Shown here: one piece after another, positions 12,262 to 30,425 of the stretch
Position numbering within the stretch: the stretch's first letter is position 1
Layout of the letters: every line of letters starts with the position of its first letter
Virus record (IMG/VR): IMGVR_UViG_3300030104_005177
Coordinates: 1 to 42,468 of that record
Reading direction: 5' to 3' (one strand)
Source: a virus
Length of the DNA: 42,468 nt
Notes under the pieces: model-generated
What the model was told of the DNA's origin: nothing
Databases searched by the model: none
The model's input: only the letters and a program-made list of their open reading frames with translations
Position numbers and translations under genes: made by a program

Positions 12262-13106
12262 TGGCTAATACTATAAATGAATACTTTCAACCTTCATCTA
12301 CAAGCTCACATAGTAATATAGATAACTTAATATTAGAAGCTGAGCTAGATAAATTTGCACAGACAGGCTCTATACGTGAAGATAGAACTCCAAGATACAT
12401 AGGTGGAACAGACGATGTTGTAGCTAATATAGCTTTATCTCCTATAATGACTTTAAAAAGCATGGGTAATGTTGGAAGAAAGATACTAGAAAAAACTGGC
12501 TTACGCAATCCATTGTCTCACTATACTAGAGCAAGAAACATTTCCAATATATTTAAAAAAGGTAGAATAGATGGATATAAAGGAGTTTCCACTACAAGAG
12601 ACCCTTCCTTTACCAATAGAAGTCATAACACAATAGGAACGGATATTAGGCTTGTTGTAGATAGAGATGAGTTAATAAAAAAAGGCTTAAAGGTAAAACC
12701 GTATGTTGAACCCGGTGGGATGCCCGGATATTCTAAAACACTTAACGACTACAGTAGGCCTCCAATAACACTTGAAAACTATAGAAAGATACATGGGCAA
12801 TATCCAAATCAAATGAATCCTAGGTTTGAGTTTGAAGAAAGAGTAAGAAGTAATATACCTACAGAAAATATAAAACTTATAGATATACTTAAGCTACCTG
12901 AATGGTTTGGAGATACAAATTATAGGCATTCTTATAATTTAAGACAGTTTCTTAAAAATTTATCTAGCACAAAAACTCCTATTGTAAAAAGTACTTTTGC
13001 AGAAGATAGACTTAAAAACATACCTGTAAAAGATGAGGAGACTCTTGAAAATATATACAAACTAATGCAAACTCCAACATATAAATTTGATCCATTCAAA
13101 CGCTAA
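12261..13106 (+). CDS. ADP-ribosyltransferase-like protein, possibly virion-delivered
   Basis: The product is 281 aa and starts in TAATG after the 1229-aa virion gene. Residues 86-120 read SHYTRARNISNIFKKGRIDG and then STTRDPSF. Residues 128-138 hold a strand ending VVDRDELIK, and FEFEERV lies at 189-195. This order (H-Y-T, a [ST]-x-[ST]-R-D strand, a D-x-D-x-L strand, then ExEER) matches phage members of the ADP-ribosyltransferase fold. In that fold H87, the Ser110/Thr pair and Glu190 or Glu192 would bind NAD and catalyse transfer. It is the last rightward gene, so it could be packaged and injected like T4 Alt. The assignment is motif-based and unverified. Confidence 0.5.
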   Translation: MANTINEYFQPSSTSSHSNIDNLILEAELDKFAQTGSIREDRTPRYIGGTDDVVANIALSPIMTLKSMGNVGRKILEKTGLRNPLSHYTRARNISNIFKKGRIDGYKGVSTTRDPSFTNRSHNTIGTDIRLVVDRDELIKKGLKVKPYVEPGGMPGYSKTLNDYSRPPITLENYRKIHGQYPNQMNPRFEFEERVRSNIPTENIKLIDILKLPEWFGDTNYRHSYNLRQFLKNLSSTKTPIVKSTFAEDRLKNIPVKDEETLENIYKLMQTPTYKFDPFKR

Positions 13107-14434
13107 AAAGGCTTAGGTGTGCCGTTTACATCATCTCCTCTTTCTCTTGCTAATGCTACTGCCTCAGCTTCTGTATTAGTAACTAAACAACTATTACCAT
13201 GATACCCAACCTCGCAAGAGTTGGTGCTACCATATCTATTTTTAGCTACTATAAGTTCTAAGAAACAATCACTATTACCATCGTCACCATATCTAGATAC
13301 CCAAGGATAATGAGAGAATACAACTATCTCTGCATCTTGTTCCAAGTTACCAGACTCAGCTAGGTCAGATAACCTAGGCACTCTGTCTGTTCTGTGCTCC
13401 ATATTTCTATTCATCTGCGACACTAGTATTACAGACATATCTTGTGACTTAGCTAGCCATTTATAACTACGACTAACATCTCCTATCTTTAATCGTAAGT
13501 CCCTCCTATCATTTGCAGGGTGTTCTATTAAACCTATATGGTCATCTATAACTACATCTGGACTTATAGCTTTTATCTCACGAAAAGTATTCTCTATATC
13601 TCGTACATCATCGAACATAAATAACTTACCGTTATACACCTCAGATATTAAAGAAGATATATCAGATAACTCTTCCTTGTCTACATCTATATTGTTACGT
13701 AAGTTCCTGTATTGTAAGGACTTAGACTCCATTGCTATAAACTTCTTCATCATCTCTGTGTTAGGCATCTCTCTATTAAACATAGCAACCTTAAGTCCTT
13801 GGTGTACTAAGTTCCTAGCTATATTAGCTGATACAGTTGTCTTAGCATTGCCGGGTCTACCTGCTATAATAGTTATCTCACCTCTTGTCATACCTGTAAC
13901 TATTCTATCTAATGTATTGATACCTGTTTGTATCTGTGTAGTAGAATTATATATAGAGTCTTTAGTATCCTCTAATAATGAATCAATATCAAATACTTTA
14001 TTAGGCTGTAGCTTTATTATGTTACCAATAGTAGTATGTGCATCCTCTAACAAGTTAGATGTCTCAAGAGATGAGTCACCTAATCCTTTTGATATACCTG
14101 CTATTTGATTATGTAGTATTCGTCTCAAGTAATAAGAGTGCAGTCTCTTAGCATATTCTATAGAACTAGAAGGTGACACAACCCTATCCATAAAACCTGC
14201 TATTTCATAGCTAGAACTATGCCCATCTACACTATTGCCAACCTCTTCACATATGGTTACTAAATCTATCTCTTTGTTTCTTGAGTAAAGCTTATCTATT
14301 GCTGTCCAAACCTTTTGATTAAAACTAGAATAGAAGAAGTCTTTCTCTGTAATATATTGCTTAGCTGAATCTATATAAGAACTATCACTTATAAGACACC
14401 CTAAGAATGCCTGTTCTAACTCAACACTTTTCAT
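13103..14434 (-). CDS. dnaB: DnaB-type replicative helicase
   Basis: The product is 443 aa. The N-terminal DnaB domain (about 1-110) begins ELEQAFLGCLISDSS. A RecA-like motor follows: G192-R-P-G-N-A-K-T199 (Walker A), NREMPNTEMMKKF (218-232), VVIDDHIG (294-301, Walker B) and ILVSQMNRN (336-344). The usual glycine before the Walker A lysine is Ala197 here. As a ring helicase it would unwind the fork. No primase domain is attached and no phage primase or polymerase was found. It is the last gene of the leftward block, and its stop overlaps that of the convergent rightward gene by four bases. Its start overlaps the preceding gene's stop. Confidence 0.9.
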   Translation of the reverse strand: MKSVELEQAFLGCLISDSSYIDSAKQYITEKDFFYSSFNQKVWTAIDKLYSRNKEIDLVTICEEVGNSVDGHSSSYEIAGFMDRVVSPSSSIEYAKRLHSYYLRRILHNQIAGISKGLGDSSLETSNLLEDAHTTIGNIIKLQPNKVFDIDSLLEDTKDSIYNSTTQIQTGINTLDRIVTGMTRGEITIIAGRPGNAKTTVSANIARNLVHQGLKVAMFNREMPNTEMMKKFIAMESKSLQYRNLRNNIDVDKEELSDISSLISEVYNGKLFMFDDVRDIENTFREIKAISPDVVIDDHIGLIEHPANDRRDLRLKIGDVSRSYKWLAKSQDMSVILVSQMNRNMEHRTDRVPRLSDLAESGNLEQDAEIVVFSHYPWVSRYGDDGNSDCFLELIVAKNRYGSTNSCEVGYHGNSCLVTNTEAEAVALARERGDDVNGTPKPF

Positions 14435-19814: not shown

Positions 19815-20059
19815 GATTTCTCCCTGTTTTCGTGCTTTGAATTTAACTTTTCATTGTTGCATAGATCAAGAACTTTCTTGCTATCATCGTAAATAATTCT
19901 TTCTAAGTATATACCTGTTTCATTTTCAACTGCACTTAGTTCTTTCTCTATAATTCCTTCAGCATTTAATCCTTTGTGATAGTAATTATCTTCATCTACG
20001 TAAACTGCTAATTCTACTATTACTGTTTTGTAGTTATCGTTATGATTTGTACTACTCAT
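19805..20059 (-). CDS. Hypothetical protein
   Basis: The product is 84 aa and its ATG follows GGGAGGAAGAGTAA. It begins MSSTNHNDNYKTVIVELAVY with acidic and Asn-rich stretches and a basic C-terminus. It overlaps the amidoligase stop (8 bases) and the nuclease start (10 bases). No family is recognised. Confidence 0.5.
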   Translation of the reverse strand: MSSTNHNDNYKTVIVELAVYVDEDNYYHKGLNAEGIIEKELSAVENETGIYLERIIYDDSKKVLDLCNNEKLNSKHENREKSCR

Positions 20060-21218
20060 TTACTCTTCCTCCCTTGAACTTACTAGTTCTCTTGTTAATA
20101 TAATCACATAGCTCTACTCCAAAAGTACTCACCATGTGAGTAATAGGTGGTTCCTTAATCCACTTATCGTACTCATCTCCTGTGTACCTTTCTAGGTCTA
20201 TAGCCATATCTATTATACGATTTAGTATCTGTATCCAATTAAGTATCTTGGTTCTGTTTATAGTTCCAGAATGTAGACGGAACTCTAGAGAGCCATGATA
20301 GTATCTAGAATGTATGTTAAGACCACAATACCTAGCATCGTTATACTTATCTGCACTAGGACTAGATTCCATGTAGTCGTAATACATTTCTATTAACTCG
20401 TTCTCTTCTGTAATATGCCTAAGCTGTTTCTTAGGAATAGGAAAGTCCTTGCACCAATTAGAACTCTGCCTAGAGTTAGGCATCATACCTTTTAGTATCT
20501 CCTCAAAGTACCTGTATACTATTCCTACATGAGCTACCTGTCTAGCAGTTAGGTCTAATGAGTTGAAGTGTACATGTAGGCCGCAACTTCTATTAACTAT
20601 TGCACCTACATCACTAGACCATCCCATTAGATTATCTATACTTTCTAATAGCAAGTCTCCACTTGCAGGGTAGCTTACCATCTCTACACAGTCATATCCT
20701 TCTTCGCTACTAATAGAACCATCACTTGTACTAGTCCAAAAGTTAGGTGTATCTAAAGCATCGTTATATGGGAATAGACATTCTACTTCTACTCCTACAA
20801 GTCTACGAACAGGAAACTTAAACGACTCTGCTTTTCTAGAACAAGCAGGTGGTTCTTTATCATCTAAATTATATAACATATCATCTATATCGTTAGGTAC
20901 ACAATCACAACAGTAAGGGTTATCATCTCTCCAATACACCTCATCTCTATCTACAGGCTCTTCACAATCACAACAGTTCTCAAAAGTTTCATAGTAGCAA
21001 TGCTCACAGTAGGGGTTTTGATATGCAAAGTAAACCATATCAGTAGGGACACTTTCACTGCAACTGTGACATGAGTAGAAACCCTCATCATGACATGGTT
21101 CGCAATATCTATCTCCATTTACTACTATAGTATCTGTTCTATCTACAGACTCATTGCAATGACAACACTCTACTTGTTCAGGTGGTTCTACTGCTCTTTC
21201 TCTCTCTTCTACTGGCAT
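20052..21218 (-). CDS. Amidoligase (COOH-NH2 ligase) with N-terminal zinc modules, copy 1
   Basis: The product is 388 aa. Three CxxC...CxxC zinc modules fill residues 18-106 (C18/C21/C39/C42, C50/C53/C71/C74, C82/C85/C103/C106). An Amidoligase_2 domain follows: GVEVE (142-146), DGS (166-168), EMVS-P (179-184), CGLHVHFN (212-219), HGSLEFRLHSGTI (308-320). This glutamine-synthetase-like fold is predicted to use ATP to join a carboxylate to an amine, on a peptide or small molecule. The RBS is AGGAG before ATG 21218. It is a paralogue of the gene at 22549-24369 and lies next to a glutamine amidotransferase. The substrate is unknown. Confidence 0.8.
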   Translation of the reverse strand: MPVEERERAVEPPEQVECCHCNESVDRTDTIVVNGDRYCEPCHDEGFYSCHSCSESVPTDMVYFAYQNPYCEHCYYETFENCCDCEEPVDRDEVYWRDDNPYCCDCVPNDIDDMLYNLDDKEPPACSRKAESFKFPVRRLVGVEVECLFPYNDALDTPNFWTSTSDGSISSEEGYDCVEMVSYPASGDLLLESIDNLMGWSSDVGAIVNRSCGLHVHFNSLDLTARQVAHVGIVYRYFEEILKGMMPNSRQSSNWCKDFPIPKKQLRHITEENELIEMYYDYMESSPSADKYNDARYCGLNIHSRYYHGSLEFRLHSGTINRTKILNWIQILNRIIDMAIDLERYTGDEYDKWIKEPPITHMVSTFGVELCDYINKRTSKFKGGRVNE

Positions 21219-21219
21219 A

Positions 21220-21546
21220 CTAGACTCCTATGTTCGTAGCTTGTATAATACCAACTACAAAAGCGTTTATCACCTTCAACCAATTCATTTTCTTAAGAGT
21301 ATCGTATATGTCTTCTTCTAATGTATCAGAGTCTCTGTCTATCTTTGCATCAATAGAACCCATTACATCTATCTGCTTGAGTAGAAAGTCTAAGTACTCC
21401 TCATAAGAGGAACCTACTAGAAAAGGATTTTTCTTAGCTCTGTTGTACAAAGTCTCTATTACAAACTTCTTAGACTTTAGTTTAATAGGGTTAGGAAATC
21501 CTACTAGTATAACCTTCTTTTTAGAATGAGAACCATGACTTGTCAT
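21220..21546 (-). CDS. Hypothetical protein between amidotransferase and amidoligase
   Basis: The product is 108 aa. Residues about 10-20 read KKVILVGFPNP, and the rest is helical (SYEEYLDFLLKQIDV). Its start overlaps the amidotransferase stop by 26 bases, and its end is one base from the next gene, so it belongs to the same operon. No family is recognised. It could be an accessory factor of the amidoligase system. Confidence 0.55.
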   Translation of the reverse strand: MTSHGSHSKKKVILVGFPNPIKLKSKKFVIETLYNRAKKNPFLVGSSYEEYLDFLLKQIDVMGSIDAKIDRDSDTLEEDIYDTLKKMNWLKVINAFVVGIIQATNIGV

Positions 21547-22531
21547 CTTTTACCTCCCTTTCATCCTCATTGCTATAAGCGTCTTTATCTACAAAGTACT
21601 CACAATCAAAACATACTCTCTTGTTATCTGCATCTGTCCATATCTCGTCTGCACTTATCCATTCATAGCAATAGCTACACATCTCTTTTTTAGTATCGCA
21701 AGTAACAGGTAGGGCCATAGTAGCAGGACTTGAACCTCTAGTGTACTCATCTCTCCAAGACCAACCTCCGTACATAGAAGTCTTGTAGTTGTATTGAGAT
21801 AAGGTCTCAAACTGTACTTGCTCTCTGTTAGGCTTACTATTGAAATTATCTACATCATAGGTATAGATATAGTCCTCTGCCACATTCTTGATCTGTAAAA
21901 CTAGTCCAGCTCTAAGCATAGCTTCTCTCATAATCTCTTTAGTAGAAGCCCAGAACAAGACTCTAGCCTTCTTCCAATAAGCTACCACCATAGGTCTACC
22001 CGACTCTCTAGCTAGATGTACCTTTCTATTACTATCCTTTACCCATGTCAGAGCAAAGTCACCTTCTATATTCTCGAAGGCTTCATGCATCTTGTTTCTA
22101 TTAAGAGACTGAAACAATACCTGCGAGTCTACTTCGGGTACACCTTTACCCATAGACTTAGCTACTTGATTGTAGTTGTAGATGACACCATTGTGTACAC
22201 CTACTACATCTCCTACTGTAAACGGATGTGCATTAGTTACCTTTACCTTACCATGCGTAGCTAGTCTAACGTGACCCATTACAATGGTAGTGTCTCTTGT
22301 TATTCGTGATAGAATATTAGCATCAAAGTCATGCATATCTACCAAGCTAGATGAATCTACAAGCGTCTTGTAGGTATGTCTACTATCTGAATCAATAATA
22401 GAAAAACCTGTACTATCCGTACCACGGATAGAAGACTCATCTGTTAGCTCGGTGAACACATCTCTAAGAATCCTCATCTGATTGTCAGATTGTCTACCAC
22501 TAGTCTTAGCGAATCCAAAGATTCCACACAT
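21521..22531 (-). CDS. Class II glutamine amidotransferase with C-terminal zinc ribbon
   Basis: The product is 336 aa. The Ntn-type GATase domain is complete: Cys2 nucleophile (MCGIFGF), RGTDSTG (36-42), GHVRLATHG (86-94), NAHPF (100-104), HNG (113-115), VDSQ (134-137), EGDFAL (156-161). It would hydrolyse glutamine and pass ammonia to a partner. The synthetase domain of GlmS or AsnB is missing; instead the C-terminus has a zinc ribbon C285/C288...C307/C310 like those of the adjacent amidoligases. The partner is therefore probably an amidoligase. The RBS AAGGAG precedes ATG 22531. Confidence 0.85.
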   Translation of the reverse strand: MCGIFGFAKTSGRQSDNQMRILRDVFTELTDESSIRGTDSTGFSIIDSDSRHTYKTLVDSSSLVDMHDFDANILSRITRDTTIVMGHVRLATHGKVKVTNAHPFTVGDVVGVHNGVIYNYNQVAKSMGKGVPEVDSQVLFQSLNRNKMHEAFENIEGDFALTWVKDSNRKVHLARESGRPMVVAYWKKARVLFWASTKEIMREAMLRAGLVLQIKNVAEDYIYTYDVDNFNSKPNREQVQFETLSQYNYKTSMYGGWSWRDEYTRGSSPATMALPVTCDTKKEMCSYCYEWISADEIWTDADNKRVCFDCEYFVDKDAYSNEDEREVKDDKSWFSF

Positions 22532-22548
22532 ACTATTTTCTCCTTTTG

Positions 22549-24369
22549 TTAGTTGTTATCTATTCTCCTGTCTATATACTCAGCACCGAATACACCTGTT
22601 ATATCTTTAAGTATATCCATAGTTGGTATTTTGTCAGAAATAATTCTGCTACAAAGCACAGGGTCTCTTTGTAATCTTGTAGCCGTTGTCATAATTCTAT
22701 TAAGGAATTGTATCCACTCTTGAATAGGTCTAGAGTATATACTACCCTCATGGTATCTAAATTCTATTGTACCTAAGTAGAACCTAGCGTGTATATTAGT
22801 ACCAAAGTACCTAGCGTCATTGTACTTATTATCAGTAAGGTTAGTATTTGCACCTTTGTAGTATTCATTTACTAGATGAGTTAGGCTTCTCATTCTAGAT
22901 ATTTTTCTAGGACTCATAGGTATCTCTTTACAATATGTATTATCTGTTCTATTGCTAGGTAATCCTCTATAGATATAACCTTGTAATCTAGACATAATCA
23001 TTAGTAGAGATTGTATCTCTGTAAAGTTAAAGTCTAGTGCGTTCATATGTATATGTATACCACAGCTTTCATCTGCATAGTTGTCATCTTCTCTATGTGT
23101 TGTTTCTAGGTTGTCTAAAGCTTCTACTACTGTACCACCTATAATAGGTTTACTAGTTACAAACTCTACACCTCCAGAGTTTAAAGAGCCATCTTCTATT
23201 ACCTCGAAGTAATCAGTCTCACCTACTGCATCTACATAGTCTTGAGAGTCATCGTAGCAAGTTATAACCTCACTTTCTATACCTATGTATCTATTGTACT
23301 CACTCTTAGTTGCTAGTTTTATAGGTAGCCTTCTGTATCTAAAAGGACTAGCTAGATAAGACTGCAACTTTAGATCGGCACAAGAGGTGCAGTATCTACG
23401 ACCTAAAACATTATGATAGTTCTCATGGTTTCTAGTAAAGTCCATTAGTACCATTCTTCTATCAGCAGAACTTTCTGCATATCTAAGTTTGTCAAAGTCT
23501 ATTGTATCAGAACATCTACAATGTTCGCAAGAGATAATTAGGCTCTCCCAACAAGACTTACAACACCTAGTAATATCTAAGTCTAGGTATGTACTTTTAG
23601 TGTTTTTATCTTGTACGCTAAGTATACCTACTAAGTCAGTTAACTTGTAATCCGTATGACAAGCATCACATTTTTCTACTGTAGTATTGTAACAAGTGTT
23701 ACAGTACTTATCTTCATTATGTACATATGTATCATTTACTATGTCGCTACACTTAGTACAAGCATGGTAGAGTCTGTTGCTTCTAGTATTTTTTCTAATA
23801 GCTACAGCTAATATTTGTTGCCATTCACCTTGTAGATAGAATCTATTAACAGTAGGCTCACTTACATAAGTATTATCTACAAATGTTAAATCTTGTATTT
23901 TCTTATGTAGAGGTTTAACCTCACTAGTAATTCTAGTTCCAACAGGGCGTAATAGGTATTCTACCATGTCTAAACTATCTTCATATCTACTATGTAGTAT
24001 ATTGCTATAGTAGACTGACTTATAGTTTATTTCATCTACTACGTTATACTCAAATGTTAGATTGTACAATCTTCTATCTGAATATAATAGATCGGTAGCT
24101 CTACATAATATTCTATTACTACCTTTCTTAGTTTCTATTAGAACACCTAGTACATACTTAGAGTTAGAGTTATTCCAATCTTCTATCTTAGCTACGTCTA
24201 GTATCTTAGCTACTCTAGATGTTATAGTATTAAAATGATAAGACTGTAGAGTTCTATCATTAGCATAGACATCATAGTCGTAGAGTACATCTATCTCTTT
24301 GAAACTACTAGCACTAGTATACCTAGCATTAGTTGTATCTAGTAGATAGACGTCATTTGAATATAACAT
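22549..24369 (-). CDS. Amidoligase with N-terminal extension and zinc modules, copy 2
   Basis: The product is 606 aa. The first 190 residues match nothing I know. Zinc-type cysteine pairs fall at 204/207/223/226, 234/237/270/273 and 281/284 with 327/330. The ligase domain shows GIESE (363-367), DGS (393-395), EFVTSKP (402-408), CGIHIHMN (436-443) and GTIEFRYHEGSI (533-544). It has the same order as the 388-aa gene, with shared NKYNDARYxG before the last block. RBS AGGAGG lies five to six bases before ATG 24369, inside an upstream small gene. Duplicates within one operon could act as a heteromer or on two substrates. Confidence 0.8.
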   Translation of the reverse strand: MLYSNDVYLLDTTNARYTSASSFKEIDVLYDYDVYANDRTLQSYHFNTITSRVAKILDVAKIEDWNNSNSKYVLGVLIETKKGSNRILCRATDLLYSDRRLYNLTFEYNVVDEINYKSVYYSNILHSRYEDSLDMVEYLLRPVGTRITSEVKPLHKKIQDLTFVDNTYVSEPTVNRFYLQGEWQQILAVAIRKNTRSNRLYHACTKCSDIVNDTYVHNEDKYCNTCYNTTVEKCDACHTDYKLTDLVGILSVQDKNTKSTYLDLDITRCCKSCWESLIISCEHCRCSDTIDFDKLRYAESSADRRMVLMDFTRNHENYHNVLGRRYCTSCADLKLQSYLASPFRYRRLPIKLATKSEYNRYIGIESEVITCYDDSQDYVDAVGETDYFEVIEDGSLNSGGVEFVTSKPIIGGTVVEALDNLETTHREDDNYADESCGIHIHMNALDFNFTEIQSLLMIMSRLQGYIYRGLPSNRTDNTYCKEIPMSPRKISRMRSLTHLVNEYYKGANTNLTDNKYNDARYFGTNIHARFYLGTIEFRYHEGSIYSRPIQEWIQFLNRIMTTATRLQRDPVLCSRIISDKIPTMDILKDITGVFGAEYIDRRIDNN

Positions 24370-24518: not shown

Positions 24519-24941
24519 TTAGATAGGCCAATAATACTCCATGTTTATTGGCTCTTGCCACTTGTACCTAGAGTAGTAATACTCTAAGTCTTTACGTAGT
24601 AGATTGCTTCTATGAGAAGCGTGTACTCTATCGTCGCCCAACCAAGAGGGCATCTCTATAGAATCTGGCACACCTACAAGTTCCATCGTATTGTTGTAAC
24701 CTCTAAGTATCCACTCTTCTATCATCTTGTTTTTGTAGAGTAGCAACGCTTCTACATAACCATCCCACATTAGAACGGCAGGATGTCTTAGCCAACCTTT
24801 GTACTTCTTACCTTGTAGAGTTGGATTATCTACTAATACATTGTATATTTGTAATGCTTCTACTCTCTGCTTACCTAGTCTACGATAGTCTAGCATACTA
24901 GCAGAGATAGAGAAATCTTTATGTGGTAGAAATGTTTGCAT
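24519..24941 (-). CDS. Pyr_excise/MSMEG_6728-like protein (putative DNA glycosylase family)
   Basis: The product is 140 aa. It begins MQTFLPHKDFSISASMLDYR and continues with RLGKQRVEALQI, GWLRHPAVLMWDGY, PSWLGDDRVHASHRSNLLRK and YYWPI. This order is characteristic of a widespread bacterial and phage family, placed in the Pyr_excise group with T4 endonuclease V and named after MSMEG_6728. An experimentally proven pyrimidine-dimer glycosylase activity is not implied. The ATG overlaps the previous stop (TAATG). Confidence 0.7.
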   Translation of the reverse strand: MQTFLPHKDFSISASMLDYRRLGKQRVEALQIYNVLVDNPTLQGKKYKGWLRHPAVLMWDGYVEALLLYKNKMIEEWILRGYNNTMELVGVPDSIEMPSWLGDDRVHASHRSNLLRKDLEYYYSRYKWQEPINMEYYWPI

Positions 24942-28259: not shown

Positions 28260-28369
28260 TGAAGACAGCTTTAATAACATTAGCAATGATTTCTGGAAAA
28301 CTATGGTTTTTCTTAGAAGGATTATTTATCATATGCCTAGTAAAGGTGCTTAAGGGAGTAATGAAGTGA
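28259..28369 (+). CDS. Small membrane protein, 36 aa
   Basis: An ATG overlapping the previous stop (TAATG) opens a 36-aa frame: MKTALITLAMISGKLWF and then a hydrophobic stretch to LFIICLVKVLKGVMK. About residues 15-29 could cross the membrane, with a basic C-terminus inside. It overlaps the GTG of the next gene by four bases. Function is unknown; a holin-like or inner-membrane role is possible. Confidence 0.55.
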   Translation: MKTALITLAMISGKLWFFLEGLFIICLVKVLKGVMK

Positions 28370-29124
28370 AAAGAGCTATAGTTACTCCCGACAAGCACTT
28401 TCCATATGAAGACAAGAAAGCAATAAAAGTATTGTGTAAGGCAATCGAGCTTGTTAAGCCAGATATATATATTGATTTAGGGGACACGGGTGAATGGGAG
28501 TCTGTGTCTCATTGGCAATGGAAGAAAAAGAAAAGACCTCCATTAGAATATCAGCTACCTTTTGTTTATAAAGAAATAGAAGAAGTCAACAAGGGCATGG
28601 ATGTTATAGATGCTTCATTGGATAAAGCTGGAACTAAACAACGTCACTTTATTGAGGGGAACCATGATGATTGGCTTAATAGATTTGCTGAGGAAAATCC
28701 ATACTTGGCTGATGATATGCTTGTTAAGAATGCACTTAAACTTAATGAGCGTGGATACAAGTACCACAAGATTGGCAAGATGCTTAAGATTGGTAAAATC
28801 AACTTCTATCACGGACATCATTTCGCTGGTGTTAGTCATACTCGTAACCATCTCCTTCGCCTTGGTGGTAATGTTATGTATGGACATCATCATGATATAC
28901 AACAGTCATCAGTTACTCATATTGACGGGGTTAAATCAGCATGGTCAATAGGGTGCTTAAAAGACATGAGAGCAGAAGCTAATGCATGGCTAGGTAATAG
29001 GCAACATAATTGGCAACATGCTTTTGCTATTGTAGACTTTCATAAGAATAGGAACTTTAATGTTACGATTCATCAGATAGTAAATGGAGTAAGCACAGTT
29101 GATGGTAAAGTTGTTAAGGCTTAG
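28366..29124 (+). CDS. Calcineurin-like metallophosphoesterase
   Basis: The product is 252 aa, with GTG start and GGGAG upstream. Motifs appear in the correct order: D9-x-H11 (PDKHFP), DLGD (37-40), GNHDDW (98-103), HGHH (near 148) and GHHHD (near 172). This is a two-metal phosphoesterase. Phage members have been proposed as nucleases or phosphatases in DNA metabolism; the substrate cannot be read. The position just before the terminase genes is common. Confidence 0.8.
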   Translation: MKRAIVTPDKHFPYEDKKAIKVLCKAIELVKPDIYIDLGDTGEWESVSHWQWKKKKRPPLEYQLPFVYKEIEEVNKGMDVIDASLDKAGTKQRHFIEGNHDDWLNRFAEENPYLADDMLVKNALKLNERGYKYHKIGKMLKIGKINFYHGHHFAGVSHTRNHLLRLGGNVMYGHHHDIQQSSVTHIDGVKSAWSIGCLKDMRAEANAWLGNRQHNWQHAFAIVDFHKNRNFNVTIHQIVNGVSTVDGKVVKA

Positions 29125-29879: not shown

Positions 29880-30067
29880 ATCTATACGAAATATGCATTC
29901 AAGTCTTAGAACATGCTAATAATTGTAATAGAAACTTGGATAACGATATGGATGTTCAATTAATAGCAACTGAGATATATGAGTTGTTTTATGAGCACCA
30001 AATGTTTCCAATTGATGATTTACAGGAATATTGGGGTTTCAAAGAAGACTTAGATGAAAACGAATAA
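29876..30067 (+). CDS. Hypothetical acidic protein
   Basis: TTG 29876 overlaps the TerS stop in TTGA. The product is 63 aa, acidic and helical (MNLYEICIQVLEHANNCNRN). No in-frame ATG near the beginning gives a better start. Its end overlaps the next gene by 14 bases. No family is recognised. Confidence 0.45.
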   Translation: MNLYEICIQVLEHANNCNRNLDNDMDVQLIATEIYELFYEHQMFPIDDLQEYWGFKEDLDENE

Positions 30068-30425
30068 ACTAGCAGTATACGGCACATTAAGAAATGGAGA
30101 GAGAAACACATATAGTGTTAATGGTTTCTCTTTAGTATTTCCGGGTCACAGGATGTTTCCTGCGGCTATGCATGATAGGAACGCCAAGGGAATGGTTGTT
30201 GAAGTTATGGATGTTGACAGCTTTGATATAGCAAACTATGATATTTATGAAAGCATAGATACAGGTTTGTATGAAAGAAGAATAGTTAAGGTTCATGATA
30301 AAGGCAATGTTATTGATGCTTGGATGTATACTATTGGCCCTGCTTTATTGCAAGGCACTAAAGTATTTGAAAGCGTTCCAAAACAAGATTGGTTATCAAA
30401 AGAATGTCTAAACCTAAGAAAGTAA
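30054..30425 (+). CDS. Gamma-glutamylcyclotransferase-like (AIG2/GGCT fold) protein
   Basis: The product is 123 aa. The glycine-rich loop AVYGTLRNGERN (7-18) is the YGxLR signature. Glu66 in DIYESIDTGLYERRIVKV occupies the place of the catalytic glutamate in GGCT enzymes. Such enzymes open gamma-glutamyl-amine or related peptide bonds by forming 5-oxoproline. Set between terminase subunits, it seems out of place; a functional link with the amidoligases at 20-24 kb is attractive because both act on amide bonds of side-chain carboxylates. Confidence 0.75.
   Translation: MKTNKLAVYGTLRNGERNTYSVNGFSLVFPGHRMFPAAMHDRNAKGMVVEVMDVDSFDIANYDIYESIDTGLYERRIVKVHDKGNVIDAWMYTIGPALLQGTKVFESVPKQDWLSKECLNLRK

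Follow-up and report, generated by a model that had tools for sequence, protein, structure and literature searches.

A cassette of two amidoligases and a glutamine amidotransferase in a phage lineage, a distinctive variant of a known phage gene set

The cassette and its genes

We analysed the IMG/VR virus record IMGVR_UViG_3300030104_005177, whose full 42468 bases are referred to here as the window and which encodes terminase, portal and major head genes. At the locus of interest, four close or overlapping genes on the minus strand follow each other in the order AL2, GAT, m108 and AL1 (Table 1). AL1 and AL2 are ligases of the Amidoligase_2 family, GAT is a free-standing class II glutamine amidotransferase and m108 is a small protein. 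The end of AL2 and the start of GAT are 17 nucleotides apart, the end of GAT overlaps m108 by 26 nucleotides, and 1 nucleotide separates m108 from AL1. Shine-Dalgarno-like stretches were read by eye upstream of the gene starts. An earlier description of this DNA, made from its letters alone and called here the sequence-only reading, had proposed that two amidoligases flank the GAT. Its three open reading frames of 388, 336 and 606 amino acids were recovered on the minus strand where it had placed them, and its estimate that the cassette costs more than 4 kb, about a tenth of the genome, agrees with the approximately 4.3 kb measured for the four genes, a tenth of the record. The proposed flanking holds for AL2, which directly adjoins GAT, but not for AL1, since m108 lies between. 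Likewise, the ligases and the GAT had been correctly listed, but m108, the Cys4 or LIM-like ribbons described below and a gamma-glutamyl cyclotransferase-like (GGCT) gene had been overlooked. Because m108 and the GGCT-like gene must be added, the kit probably consists of five genes: AL2, GAT, m108, AL1 and GGCT.

Pfam profile searches bore out the proposed families. Against PF12224 (curated cut-off, 22 bits), AL1 scored 84.4 bits and AL2 90.4 bits, and when all six frames of the record were searched, PF12224 occurred at exactly two places, AL1 and AL2. The GAT scored 68 bits against PF13522 (GATase_6; cut-off, 27). The paralogy of the two ligases, which had also been claimed, was evident from a profile-profile comparison (E 1.9e-76; 388 columns aligned, the ribbon regions among them), and the ligase motifs quoted earlier are present. 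Alignments were made of the window and 26-28 of the 57 viral loci found with the GAT query, picked to remove near-copies and truncated genes. The core catalytic residues were invariant in 28/28 AL1 rows and 27/27 AL2 rows. Within the quoted motifs this applies to Glu, Asp, Ser, Cys, His and Arg, whereas some AL2 rows differ at the DGS Gly or the EFR Phe. In the wider set of rows used for the ligase tree, the DGS Gly varied in six rows of the lineage and two divergent AL2 rows (L118 and L121) carried Phe or Tyr at the last His column. Neither a missing family match nor a loss of active-site residues, the outcomes named beforehand as speaking against an amidoligase, was found at the level of sequence and of the AL1 fold.

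The predicted model of AL1 had a predicted local distance difference test (pLDDT) score of 88.9. It matched YbdK (1r8g) with a VIA-align Z of 12.3 and a root-mean-square deviation of 4.4 over 223 residues, plant glutamate-cysteine ligase (2gwc) with a Z of 11.4, many glutamine synthetases at Z 10-11 and the gamma-glutamylmethylamide synthetase GmaS at Z 10.5. The matches to enzymes of this fold covered about residues 109-388. In the predicted model, therefore, the AL1 catalytic domain has the glutamine-synthetase/gamma-glutamylcysteine-ligase fold. The sequence-profile search found no relative of the ligase domain in the PDB. AL2 comprises a poorly conserved N-terminal stretch of about 200 amino acids, a Cys-rich region and a catalytic domain, the last of which is presumed to be glutamine-synthetase-like by its homology with AL1.

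In the GAT, Cys2, R89, T92, H113-N114-G115 and D135 were invariant in 28/28 rows. Residues 35-181 aligned with GlmS (1xff), and this alignment spans the R, HNG and D residues, not Cys2. The intact Cys2 nucleophile and the lack of a synthase domain, both noted in the sequence-only reading, were confirmed: the NCBIfam matches to GlmS, AsnB, PurF and others were all below their cut-offs, and the best of them reached 70.2 bits against a cut-off of 381 and covered only the first 246 of 601 positions.

Three Cys4 ribbons are readable in AL1, and comparable conserved CxxC pairs occur in AL2. The LIM domain profile PF00412 matched AL1 in three stretches (26.5 bits; cut-off, 22.9), and the AL1 ribbons matched LIM chains by sequence and by fold, with LIM proteins listed by Foldseek. 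PF00412 gave no match at E 1 in AL2 or GAT, which show only conserved Cys4 motifs and a resemblance to the AL1 ribbons at profile level. For the GAT C-terminus and the ribbons of AL1, the profile match had an E of 1.2e-6 and a probability of 90.7%, to be read in the light that any two Cys4 ribbons score somewhat. The LIM-like ribbons of AL1 may bind zinc.

The small protein m108 has 9 invariant columns in 29 rows and a conserved C-terminal tail, which was predicted with low confidence in the model. It had no Pfam, PHROG, PADLOC or NCBIfam match and no PDB relative by sequence profile (best E 0.15). Neither PDB nor BFVD contained a significant fold match to its model (best BFVD E 0.042), a negative that is weak evidence because the pLDDT of the model was only 73.3. 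Outside the viral loci, no relative was confirmed in the genome-contig collection, where the scan used the one usable peptide pattern; a virus-only distribution is therefore provisional. A membrane tail was considered for m108 and is not claimed. The most hydrophobic 17-residue window lay at most 5 residues from the C-terminus in 29/29 rows, but its hydrophobicity was at least 1.6 in only 9/29, and single-sequence shuffles reached the observed values in 3-60% of cases.

Conservation of the cassette in a viral lineage

Of the 57 loci found with the GAT query, 52 had the order ligase-GAT-m108-ligase. Three others (L019, L023 and L045) were cut or too short, and the distant L056 and L057 lacked this order. 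The m108 query gave 63 new loci, with the full order AL2-GAT-m108-AL1 in 55; three (L089, L093 and L107) were cut by contig ends, and five (L116, L123, L124, L130 and L131) had GAT-m108-AL1 without AL2. The two sets lie largely on the same contigs and are not independent. The doubled ligase is thus a fixed trait of the viral lineage and not unique to this phage. A further search of viral stretches kept the best 80 of at least 382 confirmed ones. Judged by eye, the gene that precedes GAT in L123, L124, L130 and L131 has a start resembling that of the pyrimidine-dimer glycosylase gene of the window. L116 falls among the AL1 rows of two-ligase loci, which suggests that it lost AL2; for the five one-ligase loci as a group, loss and original absence are alternatives. 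These five, set against the 55 two-ligase loci, are natural controls.

The ratios of nonsynonymous to synonymous substitution rates were determined against four relatives (16 gene-by-locus comparisons). They were 0.25-0.36 for AL1, 0.16-0.27 for AL2, 0.12-0.18 for GAT and 0.05-0.16 for m108. All four cassette genes are under purifying selection.

The ligase tree contained rows from 23 two-ligase loci, 7 others, the window and 9 external proteins. AL1 and AL2 formed mostly separate groups: three label changes were needed over the AL1, AL2 and external rows, the minimum being two, and none of 200 shuffles had as few (0/200). The external rows joined among the AL2 rows, and the root of the AL1/AL2 split is not fixed. 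The best explanation is that the two ligases are non-equivalent, as two subunits of one ligase or as two ligases for two carboxylates.

The cassette DNA had no match among phage records. No named phage with two ligases was found with the AL1 query (150 records, 150 places) or the AL2 query (64 records, 64 places), each of which a divergent partner could escape. Nor was a close named phage found, as all 271 matches of the terminase large subunit (TerL) were below 60% identity.

The GGCT-like gene and the genomic setting

The GGCT-like gene was kept in 22/22 loci that reach TerL, out of the 57 found with the GAT query. A phmmer search of its protein against the PDB gave no match at E 0.01. We consider this gene a likely functional partner of the cassette, located outside its operon.

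The cassette sits among replication and recombination genes; no DNA polymerase was found among the 29 window proteins searched with PHROGs. Between 12900 and 28500, terminator-like sites exceeded shuffled sequences (12 vs. a mean of 5.5, standard deviation 2.1), and promoter-like sites did not (69 vs. a mean of 63.2, standard deviation 8.4). Because one weak terminator-like site lies on the minus strand at 24451-24438, just before AL2, this gene may start its own transcript. No terminal direct repeat was found in the 42468-base record and no completeness estimate is attached to it, so the record may be incomplete.

Table 1. Positions of the cassette genes, their domains and other features in the window
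Feature	Position	Strand	Evidence or remark
AL2, Amidoligase_2 ligase, 606 aa	22549-24369	-	PF12224 E 2.2e-25; first cassette gene in relatives
AL2 catalytic domain (by homology), residues ~362-559	22693-23286	-	PF12224 match residues 400-559; alignment with AL1
AL2 Cys-rich ribbon region, residues 204-330	23380-23760	-	Cys columns kept in 26-27/27 rows
GAT, free-standing class II glutamine amidotransferase, 336 aa	21521-22531	-	PF13522 E 1.1e-18
GAT C-terminal Cys4 ribbon motif, C285, C288, C307, C310	21602-21679	-	invariant in 28/28 rows
m108, small protein, 108 aa	21220-21546	-	relatives in 64 viral loci (profile search)
AL1, Amidoligase_2 ligase with LIM-like ribbons, 388 aa	20052-21218	-	PF12224 E 1.4e-23; PF00412 E 7.6e-6
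AL1 LIM-like Cys4 ribbon repeats, residues 18-106	20901-21167	-	PF00412; Cys kept in 24-28/28 rows
AL1 catalytic domain, predicted glutamine-synthetase/gamma-glutamylcysteine-ligase fold, residues 141-345	20184-20798	-	predicted-model match
GGCT-like gamma-glutamyl cyclotransferase gene	30054-30425	+	PF06094 E 6.6e-12; beside terminase large subunit
Pyrimidine-dimer DNA glycosylase	24519-24941	-	PF03013 E 6.8e-22; directly before AL2
Metallophosphoesterase	28366-29124	+	phrog_221 E 9.3e-26
DnaB-like helicase	13103-14434	-	PHROGs

Ribbon-bearing ligases on genome contigs

The AL1 profile was searched against genome contigs and the best 80 of 90 loci were kept. Among these, the closest full-length relatives of AL1 were on three Omnitrophica contigs, with 28-32% identity, ribbons included. 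Each of the three has a GAT with CxxC pairs directly downstream of the ligase. On one of them (L133, 3433-16049), the ribbon-bearing ligase and the GAT stand amid a type IV secretion system coupling protein, a TraC/TraG-like ATPase, RadC and PC4, a setting that looks like a conjugative element. On L135, the three proteins searched were sigma-factor-like, DUF3857/transglutaminase-like and VWA, with no conjugation gene among them.

Adjacency of ligase and GAT was counted on 69 ligases with at least 900 bases downstream, out of the 81 at these loci. A GAT was adjacent to or fused with the ligase in 30/31 cases with at least four CxxC pairs, in 2/3 with one to three and in 2/35 with none. By these counts, ribbons and GAT were associated (Fisher p 3.6e-15, the three ligases with one to three pairs being left out). 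The exceptions were L200, which has ribbons without a GAT, and L159 and L208, which have a GAT without counted ribbons. Near the 32 gut-type ribbon loci, a serine-recombinase-like cluster occurred in 14/32 and a tyrosine-integrase-like cluster in 10/32 (clusters named by eye).

Two further arrangements were observed on these contigs. At L178 (1533-3842), a single 770-amino-acid open frame holds a ribbon-bearing ligase and a GAT whose Met-Cys start is internal; the frame may be a fusion or merely a missing stop. The Clostridia contig L175 (7965-14048) carries two pairs of ribbon-bearing ligase and GAT in tandem.

Interpretation

Ligases of the glutamine-synthetase fold use ATP to form an acyl phosphate, which is then attacked by ammonia or an amine. 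Class II GATs free ammonia from glutamine, and GGCT enzymes cleave gamma-glutamyl amines. The best overall explanation of the cassette, to which we give somewhat less than an even chance, is a glutamine-fed, ATP-dependent amidating enzyme acting on envelope carboxylates. Its parts differ in standing. The enzyme chemistry, predicted to be ATP-dependent amidation, is highly probable, and a complex coupled to the GAT is reasonably likely, whereas an envelope substrate is put forward only tentatively.

In the proposed enzyme, the GAT would convert glutamine to glutamate and ammonia. AL1 and AL2 would turn a carboxylate into an acyl phosphate, which ammonia (or an amine) would attack, and one or two carboxylates would be amidated. 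The Cys4 ribbons on AL1, AL2 and the GAT could tie the complex together, with m108 as an accessory or adaptor subunit. The cassette would be made early in infection along with the replication genes, and its target would be carboxylates of host envelope peptides, such as the Glu or diaminopimelate of wall precursors. As an outcome, competing phages would be blocked or the wall would be altered. The GGCT protein would clear gamma-glutamyl by-products, and the cleavage of gamma-glutamyl amines by such enzymes fits gamma-glutamyl chemistry. We infer the hand-over of ammonia, the docking role of the ribbons, the early timing in this phage and the substrate. The envelope target is placed first, with modest probability, because it is the published proposal (PMC5498523; PMC10580990) and because the cassette of Pseudoalteromonas phage HP1 is expressed at once: its predicted peptidoglycan-modification genes are on immediately after infection (PMC7082346).

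Several observations weigh against this explanation. Nothing in the kit is specific for peptidoglycan, the host was not found, and the GGCT-like gene lies outside the operon. The COOH-NH2 ligase of known cassettes was not recognised: all six frames of the record were searched with PF14395 and with the protein of phage KZY1, with no match at E 1. The PF14395 profile does recognise the LUZ24-like COOH-NH2 ligase, and the record itself may be incomplete. Ligase, GAT and GGCT do not always occur together in phages. In the regions inspected, a ligase and a GAT with no annotated GGCT occur in Alcaligenes phage QDWS535 and Arthrobacter phage Salgado, a ligase and a GGCT with no annotated GAT in Bacillus phage 031MP004, and only the ligase in a Porphyromonas phage. 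GAT-linked ligases without ribbons also exist (Arthrobacter phage Salgado, LUZ24-like phages and others). When the link between ribbons and GAT was judged by independent pairs (4-5 pairs), the sign test gave p = 1, so the ribbon-GAT rule is a hypothesis only. Finally, the excerpts of openly licensed literature searched contained no measured activity of any Amidoligase_2 protein.

Given that the ribbon-bearing ligase and GAT lie beside conjugation and recombination genes, protein and metabolite targets are serious rivals to an envelope substrate. LIM domains are classically protein-binding. The LIM-type repeats on AL1, the Cys4 motifs on AL2 and GAT and the strong conservation of m108, including its C-terminal tail, are consistent with a complex acting on the carboxylates of a protein of the host (or phage), which it would amidate or join to an amino acid or amine. 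In such a complex, the ribbons would be docking surfaces and m108 could be an adaptor or even, via its conserved C-terminus, the substrate. However, no target is known, the ribbons could equally serve only to keep the complex assembled, and m108 lacks a recognisable fold; we regard protein or peptide modification as unlikely, if worth serious attention. A related proposal, which we consider improbable, is a glutamine-driven conjugating machine specific to mobile elements. Its two specialised ligases of the glutamine-synthetase fold and the GAT would share LIM-type ribbons for docking, m108 would be a virus-only adaptor, and the target would be a host protein or peptide, not the wall. If it were true, ribbons on an amidoligase would identify ligases coupled to glutamine, in phages and conjugative elements alike.

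The ligase and GAT might instead make or destroy an amide metabolite, such as a signal, an anti-defence compound or an exclusion factor, in conflicts between mobile elements. The conjugation-type neighbours on one Omnitrophica contig, the recombinase-like genes at many gut-type loci and transposon Tn6164, on which a putative amidoligase adjoins an AIG2/GGCT-like gene (PMC3485107), are in line with this small-molecule chemistry. It is nevertheless a rather improbable account, as the five proteins searched had no match in PADLOC-DB at E 0.01 and no metabolite enzyme was recognised among the neighbours of the cassette. A role in auxiliary nitrogen or amino-acid metabolism, raising the turnover of host glutamine and glutamate, was proposed for phage ZRK32, which has amidoligase, GAT, glutathione synthase and GGCT genes; P. 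stutzeri 273 grew better on nitrate or ammonium when this phage was added (PMC10945688). For the present cassette we judge such a role very unlikely, since two divergent ligases, ribbons and m108 would be unnecessary and the GAT consumes glutamine. DNA hypermodification via an amide linkage, which the position among replication and recombination genes might suggest, is the least credible account and scarcely to be expected, as no thymidylate-synthase-like, nucleotide-kinase or other base-modification match was found among the proteins searched (29 with PHROGs and 19 with Pfam, some small open reading frames lying outside these sets).

The lineage offers a compact form of the cassette, made up of three enzymes and m108, in which purifying selection acts on two intact ligases. 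The ribbons are a possible structural marker of GAT coupling. The occurrence of the ribbon-bearing pair near conjugation and recombination genes suggests service for several kinds of mobile elements, wider than wall modification by lytic phages.

Comparison with known systems

Many phages have annotated Amidoligase_2 and GAT genes, whose clusters are, as the sequence-only reading had it, known predicted systems with unproven substrates. The proposals of peptidoglycan modification by phages reportedly go back to Iyer and co-workers in 2009 and Hardies and co-workers in 2013, according to citing papers. The full gene set, detailed below, is known in the literature as a predicted cassette for peptidoglycan modification, with prevention of superinfection as a possible function (PMC5498523, PMC11945000), and the gene set of the LUZ24-like cassette is listed in PMC3890496. 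Amidoligase and GAT genes also occur in phages of marine OM43 bacteria; a metallophosphoesterase gene is likewise found in OM43 phages, some of which have the amidoligase and GAT (PMC10580990). In GenBank, clusters annotated with a COOH-NH2 ligase, an amidoligase, a class II GAT, an ATP-grasp (or S6-modification) enzyme and a GGCT, and with a 165-208-amino-acid protein before the amidoligase, are present in the LUZ24-like phage Ab22, the Zobellviridae phage KZY1, Escherichia phage SU7 and Pseudoalteromonas phage HP1. The annotated cassettes of five phages unite ligase, GAT and GGCT.

Like the window, the RIO-1/PSA-HP1, phiEco32, LUZ24-like and Zobellviridae cassettes combine Amidoligase_2, class II GAT and GGCT in small tailed phages. 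They also lie near early or replication genes, and their function is predicted. The window lineage differs in having two Amidoligase_2 paralogues, both with ribbon motifs. Its GAT has 336 amino acids with a Cys4 motif, compared with 377-667 amino acids in six annotated cassette records, and its GGCT-like gene lies outside the operon. m108 is unrelated to the six 165-208-amino-acid proteins of the known cassettes (hhalign probability 0.2%, E 0.33). A RimK-type ATP-grasp enzyme gave no match at E 1 in the record with PF08443 or the KZY1 protein, Pfam having also missed the annotated enzyme of Ab22. No ATP-grasp protein was found among 29 window proteins with PHROGs or 19 with Pfam, in a record that may be incomplete.

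Two other sets of elements resemble the window in part. The Clostridium clostridioforme prophages phi13 alpha and epsilon have two amidoligase open reading frames (PHROG 2443) and a GGCT (PMC11318856). They share with the window the doubled amidoligase and the nearby GGCT, but the excerpted description, through which they were compared, lists no GAT or m108. The Omnitrophica and mostly Clostridia-type gut contigs share the N-terminal CxxC ribbons on the ligase, the GAT directly downstream and signs of mobile elements. Unlike the window, they mostly have one ligase per locus (L175 has two pairs) and no detected m108, and the gut-type GATs are mostly without CxxC pairs. Among characterised enzymes, YbdK, glutamate-cysteine ligase and GmaS have a fold in common with the predicted AL1 catalytic domain, at 8-12% identity, but lack the ribbons and the GAT partner.

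No description of a ribbon-bearing ligase-GAT pair or of m108 was noticed in the excerpts of openly licensed papers. Phages were already known to carry a gene set of this kind, of which the cassette of the window is a distinctive variant. Its new features are a ligase fixed in duplicate together with m108, Cys4 ribbons common to the three enzymes, a GGCT-like gene detached from the operon and a link to other mobile elements.

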